From NCBI RefSeq assembly GCF_001282785.1, contig NZ_CVUA01000001.1, forward strand, positions 1,674,001 to 1,738,000: DNA of 64,000 nt, read 5' to 3'. This DNA comes from Halolamina sediminis (GTDB lineage Archaea > Halobacteriota > Halobacteria > Halobacteriales > Haloferacaceae). The position numbers and the translations under genes were made by a program. Below the pieces are notes generated by a model. It saw only the letters and a program-made list of their open reading frames with translations, searched no databases and was not told the origin of the DNA. Positions 17,383-54,975 of this stretch are shown in pieces. The first letter of the stretch is position 1. Every line of letters begins with the position of its first letter.

Positions 17383-17484
17383 GTGACTGAAACAGTATCT
17401 CTTCAGTAAGGGTGCTGTGACGGCAACAGCATCTCTTCACTGGGTCTACTGCGACGGCGACAGCAGCTCGATCGTTGGCACCTT
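17383..17484 (+). repeat. Three tandem degenerate 34-bp units at the edge of repeat element copy 1
   Basis: Units at 17383-17416, 17417-17450 and 17451-17484 share a GTGACNGNAACAG(C/T)ATCTC-like core with exactly 34-base spacing. The third merges into the left arm of the structured element. Single copies of the same 34-bp unit form arms of copies 2 and 3. Units 1 and 2 are most alike (CATCTCTTCA against TATCTCTTCA). They are contiguous without spacers, so this is not a CRISPR array. Confidence 0.75.
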
Positions 17485-17782
17485 GCGACCGCACCGCCCC
17501 GCACAGCCCTCACGCCTTCCCAGCCGACTCGTTCGGGCTCGTTCGCCCACGGAGGCGTCGTGCGGGCGACCCACGCGTCGCCCGCACTGCCAGCGAGACC
17601 GCCGGTCTCGCCCTGCTCACGTCGCGCGCCACCGCCGGCTGCAGTGCGGTCGCGGTGGACGCCTCGCGAGCGCCACGTTGGCGCTCGCGGGGGGAGGGGT
17701 GGGGATTCCGTGCTGCGCCGGACCCCGTGTCCGGCACACTGCGGTCACAAGTGGCCATGCTCACTCCGCGGTCCTGTTCGCG
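17451..17782 (+). repeat. Structured intergenic repeat element, copy 1
   Basis: About 332 bases between hisC and the next gene, homologous to elements at 40664-41019 and 54616-54975. Ends are imperfect inverted repeats: the left arm runs into TTGCGACCGCACCG, and the right arm read backwards gives ACTTGTGACCGCAGTG. Shared blocks are CGCCCCGCACAGCCC, CCCAGCCGACTCG, CGGTGGACGCC and GGGGAGGGGTGGGGATTC. Hairpins occur at 17665-17689 (11-bp stem, CGT loop) and 17717-17735 (7-bp stem, CCCGT loop). No protein is credible across it. It could be a MITE-like element or a structured RNA. Confidence 0.85.
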
Positions 17783-40663: not shown

Positions 40664-41019
40664 CGCGAACACGACCGCGGAGCGAGCATGGCCTCTTGTG
40701 ACCGCACCGCCCCGCACAACCCACGAACCTCCCCAGCCGACTCGTTCGGCCTCCGGCCTCACTCGTCCCTCGCGCTGACATGCGCCACGAGGGCGCATGC
40801 GCTTCGCGCCGACAGCCACAACGTGCGGTGGCGGTGGACGCCGCAGGCCGGCACTTGTCGCCGTCATCAGAAATCGGAAATTTCTGATTGGCAGACGAGA
40901 ATCTCCGATTCTCGTCGACGGCCCGCGGGGGAGGAGTGGGGACTCGGAACTGTGCCGGGCCTCGTGCCCGGCACCCTGCGGTCGCAAGTGGTCAAGCATC
41001 GAGATGCTGTTGCGGTTGC
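40664..41019 (+). repeat. Structured intergenic repeat element, copy 2
   Basis: About 356 bases in the spacer between the 41-residue gene and ndh. It keeps the shared blocks of copies 1 and 3: GACCGCACCGCCCCGCACA, CCCCAGCCGACTCGTTCGG, GGCGGTGGACGCCG and GGGGGAGGAGTGGGGACTCGG. The left arm is type B and the right arm type A. Hairpins: 40866-40888 (9-bp A/T-rich stem), 40894-40916 (10-bp stem, TCC loop) and 40952-40974 (9-bp stem, CTCGT loop). The stems differ in sequence from copies 1 and 3. No gene is supported. Confidence 0.85.
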
Positions 41020-54615: not shown

Positions 54616-54975
54616 TCGACAGCAACAGCGTCTCGACGCGAGACCACTTGCGACTGCACCGCCCCGCACAGCCCACAGATCTCCCCAGCCGACCCGCTCG
54701 CATGCGCTCGCTCGTCCCTCGCGCTCGGCTCGCGCACGGAGGCGTCGTGCGGGCGAGCCACGCGTCGCCCGCACGGCCAGCGGGACCGCCGGTCCCGCCC
54801 TGCTCGCGCTTCGCCCCCACAGCGACCGTGGTGCGGTAGCGGGGCGGTGGTCGCCGCGGGCCGGCGCCGGTCGCCGGCCCGCGGGGGAAGGGTGGGGATT
54901 CGGTACTGCGCCGAACCTCGTGTTCGGCGCACTGCGGTCACAAGTGGTCTACGAACGAGTTGCTGTTGCCGTCGT
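54616..54975 (+). repeat. Structured intergenic repeat element, copy 3
   Basis: About 360 bases between the MATE gene and a small regulator gene. Both 34-base arms are type A: left 54616-54649 into GCGACTGCACC, right 54942-54975 read backwards into GTGACCGCAGTGCG. Hairpins occur at 54854-54884 (12-bp stem, GCCGGTC loop) and 54907-54931 (10-bp stem, CTCGT loop). A further stem pair around GTGCGGGCGA and TCGCCCGCAC is shared with copy 1, as is CGGAGGCGTCGTGCGGGCGA. No gene is supported. Confidence 0.87.

Follow-up and report, generated by a model that had tools for sequence, protein, structure and literature searches.

Variable hairpin slots in a large intergenic repeat of Halolamina sediminis, their probable exchange among copies and a separate double-hairpin mobile element

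The DNA analysed here (the window) is a stretch of 64,000 nucleotides of the Halolamina sediminis chromosome (contig NZ_CVUA01000001.1, positions 1,674,001 to 1,738,000 of the forward strand). It contains three copies, W1, W2 and W3, of an intergenic repeat of ∼300 bp with inverted ends, one of which carries an inserted double-hairpin mobile element (DHE). The features are as follows, numbered from the first letter of the window.

17478–17756, plus strand: repeat copy W1, with inverted ends, several hairpins and a G-rich block
17560–17611, plus strand: double hairpin in W1 of another sequence type than the DHE, with GTC before it (17557–17559)
17665–17689, plus strand: slot hairpin of W1, with an 11-bp stem and a 3-nt loop
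17690–17704, plus strand: G-rich block of W1
40690–40993, plus strand: repeat copy W2
40843–40852, plus strand: 5' arm of the W2 slot stem, GCAGGCCGGC, followed by its loop (40853–40859)
40860–40862 and 40920–40926, plus strand: 3' arm of the W2 slot stem, its halves parted by the DHE insertion
40863–40919, minus strand: DHE, an inserted 57-bp double-hairpin mobile element of the form GTC-hairpin-TGCCA-hairpin-GAC, containing the hairpins at 40866–40888 and 40894–40916
40927–40941, plus strand: G-rich block of W2
54642–54949, plus strand: repeat copy W3
54747–54798, plus strand: double hairpin in W3 of the same type as in W1, with linker GGCCA and with GTC before it (54744–54746)
54854–54884, plus strand: slot hairpin of W3, with a 13-bp stem and a 5-nt loop
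54885–54897, plus strand: G-rich block of W3

The frame of the large repeat consists of CCACTTGYGACCGCACCGCCCCGCACAGCCC...CCTCCCCAGCCGACTC, several small hairpins and GCGGTGGACGCC, followed by a hairpin slot and, after the slot, by GGGGGAGGGGTGGGGA, a second hairpin around CCTCGT and TGCGGTCRCAAGTGG. The inverted ends extend over ∼15 bp. Two BLAST probes and one pattern located 59 candidate places of the repeat, some of them partial, in the genome to which the window belongs (G000; 2.84 Mb, one contig), and these were then retrieved with their flanks. The left end of the repeat has an exact match in a contig of Halolamina rubra. The G-rich block alone was useless as a probe at two mismatches, with 364 matches versus 434 in a reversed control.

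The W2 slot, read without its insertion, forms the stem GCAGGCCGGC-ACTTGTC-GCCGGCCCGC, which is of the same class as that of W3 and has one A·C mismatch. The DHE lies in one arm of this ordinary stem and reads on the minus strand, in its first half, GTC, GACGAGAATC-GGA-GATTCTCGTC and TGCCA and, in its second half, ATCAGAAAT-TTCCG-ATTTCTGAT and GAC. The double hairpin of W1, of a different type, reads GTGCGGGCGA...TCGCCCGCAC-TGCCA-GCGAGACC...GGTCTCGC. A preliminary description of this DNA, partly right as an observation, had placed an 11-bp stem in W1, a 9-bp A/T-rich hairpin and a 10-bp hairpin in W2 and a 12-bp stem in W3 just before the G-rich block of each copy and had treated them as versions of one variable hairpin. 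All of these hairpins are present where it put them and precede the G-rich block, although the W3 stem comprises 13 bp on recomputation. The pair in W2 is not, however, that copy's version of the slot stem but the two halves of the one inserted DHE.

Slots were read in G000 and in a sister genome, G006, from which 40 places were retrieved; 54 slots without an insertion were readable. In 52 of these 54, well above chance, the stem is perfect over 9 bp or more, and Watson–Crick pairing holds in 481 of the 486 cells that make up the nine outer pairs, with five exceptions. Further copies were checked for random loss of pairing, and it was not seen. At most stem positions two or three kinds of pair occur, mainly G-C versus C-G, a change that cannot proceed via a G·T step. 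The preliminary statement that the stems share no sequence was too strong: they belong to a limited repertoire with outer and inner bases in common, and some of its alleles are each present in a large number of copies (e.g. CGCCGGCGCC, CGCGAGCGCC, CGCGCTCGCC and GCGGGCCGGC). The slot allele GAGGGCTCGCCACCGGTCGGCGAGCCCGT, accompanied by a degenerate G-rich block, recurs at three loci of G006 (L263, L279 and L287) and is absent among the G000 slots read.

Twenty-two places of the large repeat are common to G000 and G006, which represent two Halolamina species, with matches of at least 250 bp at 80% identity or more in both flanks (mean flank identity 89%). The repeat has the same orientation at 16 of them and is inverted at five, including W1; the remaining place has an odd flank layout. 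Where a plain slot could be read in both genomes the stems agree in none of 13 cases, of which 12 are paired over at least 8 bp in both genomes and the thirteenth (L277) was cut short by extraction; the other nine places, with an insertion or an unreadable slot, permit no plain-stem comparison. The counterpart of W1 in G006 (L261) is inverted with another stem, that of W2 (L262, with one matched flank only) lacks the insertion and has the stem CGCGAGCGCCA, and that of W3 (L263) has the slot stem GGGCTCGCC/GGCGAGCCC. A single shared place (280218/L283), the one with the odd flank layout, keeps its stem class.

The difference between orthologous copies extends well beyond the slot. Among 27 candidate ortholog pairs (19 with both cores parsed and 16 with both slots), core identity is 0.672 in the 19 pairs versus 0.679 in non-ortholog pairs (p 0.67), and every other segment tested of the orthologous repeats is likewise as unlike as in random pairs. 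The 25 bp just outside the repeat, in contrast, are more similar in orthologs (0.779 versus 0.682; p 0.0005). Change at the shared places is not specific to the hairpin; whole tracts of the repeat are replaced. The unrelated loci 47073 and 106793 have 156 identical bases in common across the slot, the unrelated loci 451307 and 2454784 have 120 and identical slot hairpins are found at unrelated loci, while the longest exact tract between orthologous repeats is 34 bp. These long tracts shared by non-orthologous copies indicate that contents are copied from locus to locus. The mean core identities within the two genomes (0.686 and 0.668) are hardly above that between them (0.675), which points to shuffling of a pool more than to homogenization; the case for simple concerted evolution of the large repeat is weak.

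The interpretation in the preliminary description is therefore half right. Its variable cassette in a conserved frame stands as far as the slot is concerned, and replacement of the slot content is what the orthologous loci display, but the unit replaced is larger than the hairpin. Its suggestion that the hairpin may specify partners is not supported: next to the same genes the hairpin differs between the two species, and identical hairpins are found at unrelated loci. Linkage between hairpin and neighbouring gene is likewise unsupported.

The five inverted copies could also have arisen if the entire repeat were lost and regained in each species, in either orientation, by recurrent insertion at preferred places, and the 'SwitchRepeats' of Haloquadratum walsbyi, different or inverted repeats at the same position in two strains, are the same pattern in the part of that account available (PMC3119063). 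The two genomes agree in at least 22 of the 40 places examined in G006, however, so that recurrent insertion would need a very strong choice of site; no empty site of the large repeat turned up in the comparisons made, and we regard this explanation as rather unlikely.

Exchange of contents must also be weighed against selection for the fold itself, in RNA or in one strand of DNA: the repeat would then function at 3' ends, in stability or in termination, and its stem would be kept by compensatory changes. The single-strand DNA folds of W1, W2 and W3, which are closed by the inverted ends, beat all shuffles (z -3.97, -6.68 and -6.44), and the gene pairs around the repeat comprise 39 convergent, seven divergent and 48 tandem pairs (94 callable of 99; raw counts without a genome-wide baseline). 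This orientation pattern resembles that reported for REPs in the accessible part of one study (PMC3733652), and a position leaning towards 3' ends would suit either tolerance or a role there. Intermediates of the G·U type are almost absent, though, the stem is not kept at orthologous loci and an Rfam scan of the whole window gave no match above the gathering score; selection of this kind would be a very unlikely explanation. No tRNA or tmRNA genes were found.

The DHE is also found in the slots of other copies of the large repeat, in both orientations, in the second hairpin and outside repeats. Its general form is GTY-hairpin-TGCCA-hairpin-GAY, as a rule of 55–57 bp, with 3-bp complementary ends, stems mostly of 9–10 bp and, as a rule, 3-nt loops. 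An alignment of 40 copies has standard pairs in 98.2% of 892 cells, and hairpin 1 has a G-C pair in first position in all 40. In this alignment 91 cells are changed on both sides, compared with 30.8 in shuffles, and two on one side only. The GTY end is nearly invariant and the element sits at (G)NC^G sites; C precedes it in 50 and G follows it in 48 of the 58 copies filtered as lying outside a host repeat, by a text filter that misfiled some copies and labelled the window's own DHE as free. There is no target duplication in the host stems, and the insert in dapA (see below) fits equally well as 57 bp without a duplication or 54 bp with a duplicated GTC. DHEs also occur in tandem, two or three head to tail, including inside genes (L115/L149, near position 170582 of G000, L107, L122, L192 and L235). 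A separate copy of the large repeat (G000:C1:308391-308629) looks as if the stretch from one double-hairpin element to another had been deleted: its slot side is fused to the second hairpin and the G-rich block is gone.

Some DHEs lie within protein genes. Among 118 double hairpins examined, ten are flanked left and right by coding sequence whose frame is consistent (one of them, L074, was judged to be a chance hairpin pair), none is frameshifted, 13 have coding sequence on one side and 95 on neither. The insert length is divisible by three in all 23 cases with coding sequence on one or both sides, compared with 57 of the other 95. ORF scoring of main-type DHEs in genes gave 18 in the sense and one in the antisense direction (p 8e-5), a count that omits L039, a different double hairpin, and L119 and L121, which look coding by eye. 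The pairs L144/L195 and L109/L162 probably each go back to one insertion in a shared ancestor, which reduces the independent sense cases to ∼16 (about 16 to 1). The lone antisense DHE (L113, in an aldo/keto-reductase-like ORF of G003) brings a stop codon into frame. The sense strand reads VDESxxLSSANQNAxRSGD or near it. The following host genes have a PDB or Pfam match.

L144, and L195 in the same gene: 4-hydroxytetrahydrodipicolinate synthase (dapA)
L221: isopentenyl phosphate kinase
L192: FtsJ-type methyltransferase
L125: Mrp/NADH antiporter protein
L107: sodium:solute symporter, with two tandem DHE copies
L159: toprim protein
L160: CobW protein
L109, and L162 in what looks like its ortholog: MazE-like protein

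The dapA locus was compared in seven genomes and is filled in G000 and G005 and empty in five sister genomes, G001, G002, G003, G004 and G006. The filled allele is 57 bp longer than the empty one, and alignment with an archaeal DapA of known structure, 2yxg, leaves a gap of 19 residues where the DHE residues lie. Both stems are identical in the two filled alleles, and the loops alone differ, one being the reverse complement of its counterpart (GAA versus TTC).

This last feature is one that template switching would produce, in which slippage on the folded arms copies changes across a palindrome in place and stems drift with neither selection nor exchange. The excess of DHE cells changed on both sides, with only two changed on one, and the frequent G-C/C-G flips of slot pairs without a G·T step are in line with it as well. 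It explains neither the identical slot alleles at unrelated loci nor the inversions of the whole repeat, and mismatches stay in eight of the 20 DHE copies within genes. Template switching may act within a pool of alleles; as the explanation of the whole we consider it decidedly unlikely.

A covariance model of the DHE matched 108 of the 118 genomes of the family at E 0.001 or better. In G000 at least 47 matches were obtained, a lower bound since this equals the number of candidates scored; G001 has 20 and G003 has 11. In a phylum sample of 294 genomes, the DHE was found in 48 of 53 Halobacteriales versus two of 241 others, a division counted from a kinship-ordered listing in which weak matches near the threshold may be chance. 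Two genomes of a family outside Halobacteriales (G145 and G163, family f15) have eight and five weak matches, with a best E of 6e-6.

No enzyme that moves the DHE was found. In a search for Y1 (IS200/IS605-type) transposases in G000, G001, G003 and G006, none was found in G001 or in G003 (79% complete), only fragments are present in G000 (broken or partial genes at L299, L302 and L305), and there are ten matches in the sister genome G006. The transposase does not follow the DHE copy number. The Y1 transposase in the genome that characterizes RAYT-mobilized REP/BIME elements is thus likewise missing from G001 and G003, which nonetheless contain DHEs; it is not required today, and its candidacy as the present-day mobilizer is unsupported. 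The preliminary description had raised the possibility of matches to phage or plasmid DNA. Phage records contain no match to W2 or the DHE, and viral contigs, searched with one exact pattern, no match to the DHE; plasmids provide partial matches to W2 in two records and partial or diverged matches to the DHE in 11 haloarchaeal records.

The nearest known description is that of SMR-A, PATE and the 'SwitchRepeats' of Haloquadratum walsbyi, as far as the available part of the account extends (PMC3119063). SMR-A elements insert into PATE palindromes without target duplication and are mobilized by unknown means, and the DHE is similarly tiny, transposase-free and inserted within palindromes of other repeats. 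SMR-A, however, has ∼110 bp and prominent inverted terminal repeats, whereas the DHE has 55–57 bp, two hairpins and 3-bp ends and, unlike SMR-A as described there, is also found in genes; PATEs are described as lacking terminal inverted repeats, unlike the large repeat with its inverted ends of ∼15 bp (PMC3119063). Owing to these differences in size, ends and host type we do not file the DHE under the Haloquadratum elements. Of the traits that mark MITEs, namely a target duplication and inverted ends in common with a transposon, the large repeat has inverted ends.

CGTC-tagged REPs, in the portion of their description available (PMC3733652), have in common with the DHE the CGTC tag, a CCA-like short tail, hairpin dimers with unlike stems, some copies inside genes and no dedicated transposase. 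They differ in having stems of 8–9 bp, in which the first two pairs are A-T, and 4–5-nt loops, compared with the stems mostly of 9–10 bp, G-C first pair in hairpin 1 and triloops of the DHE; archaea appear only in the reference list in what is available of that paper (Di Nocera et al., 2013; PMC3733652). Rickettsia palindromic elements are also palindromic and in-frame in unrelated genes, but are bacterial, ∼105–150 bp long and built as long stem-loops, as against the two hairpins in 55–57 bp of the DHE, according to the available parts of two sources (PMC10969869, PMC2229807). The double-hairpin elements of Allomyces mitochondria (Paquin et al., 2000) are, like the DHE, two-hairpin and mobile, with some copies in genes and an open mechanism, but belong to a fungal organelle, the likeness being one of description in the part of the source available (PMC2800124). 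Titles and abstracts, in a literature that excludes most subscription journals and all preprints, contained no recognizable haloarchaeal report of in-frame double-hairpin elements, and the DHE peptide strings were in no paper of the full-text literature searched within the same scope.

We propose that two layers are probably superimposed here: an intergenic frame whose contents are exchanged among its copies and a separate mobile DHE. The small element is well supported and exchange among the repeats moderately so; the latter we infer from two species ∼11% apart in their flanks. In the first layer, the multi-hairpin repeat of ∼300 bp occupies long-lived intergenic places, mostly downstream of genes, and its contents would be overwritten from other copies through gene conversion or ectopic recombination. 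Ectopic exchange with the inverted ends as its anchors is the best explanation for the frame contents. Each place would thereby sample a pool of hairpin alleles. These may stay perfectly paired either because the repeat depends on its folded strand or because one arm serves as template to restore a mispaired partner. The DHE, the second layer, would be mobilized in folded, single-stranded form by an enzyme provided from elsewhere, or else would travel through repair or template switching. Inside genes it would persist because the peptide read from its sense strand is hydrophilic, contains no stop and takes up a whole number of codons. Against the two-layer explanation, only six of the 11 DHE-interrupted slots in G000 and G006 rejoin to a stem of at least 9 bp on excision, the rest giving 7 or 8 bp; these slots were found, and the DHE cut out, by a regular expression that left three more long slots unmatched.

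A bolder version, to which we give only a small probability, would have haloarchaeal chromosomes carry inherited intergenic 'sockets' whose hairpins a recombination system, either dedicated or co-opted, actively and repeatedly exchanges or flips by way of the inverted ends. Each lineage would thereby re-tag the same places with new hairpins; the DHE would be a parasite of that system, escaped into protein genes, to which it adds a standard peptide. On the two-layer explanation, fixed places with exchanged contents offer a way to study how ectopic exchange proceeds in archaea and how palindromes stay perfect, and enzymes such as DapA, which exist in nature with and without the element, are material for measuring the effect of a standard 19-residue insert. 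Haloarchaea would have their own version of the Rickettsia-type in-frame palindromic elements, spread through the order. Methanocaldococcus reportedly figures in a 2005 study in connection with the Rickettsia elements.

In the outer flanks of the large repeat (e.g. at L043 and L067), tandem units of ∼39 bp (CAACGATCGAGTTGCTGTCGCGGTTGCTGT...) extend outward from the right end, and a related inverted sequence, CAACAGCAGCTCGATCGTTGG, lies outside the left end.
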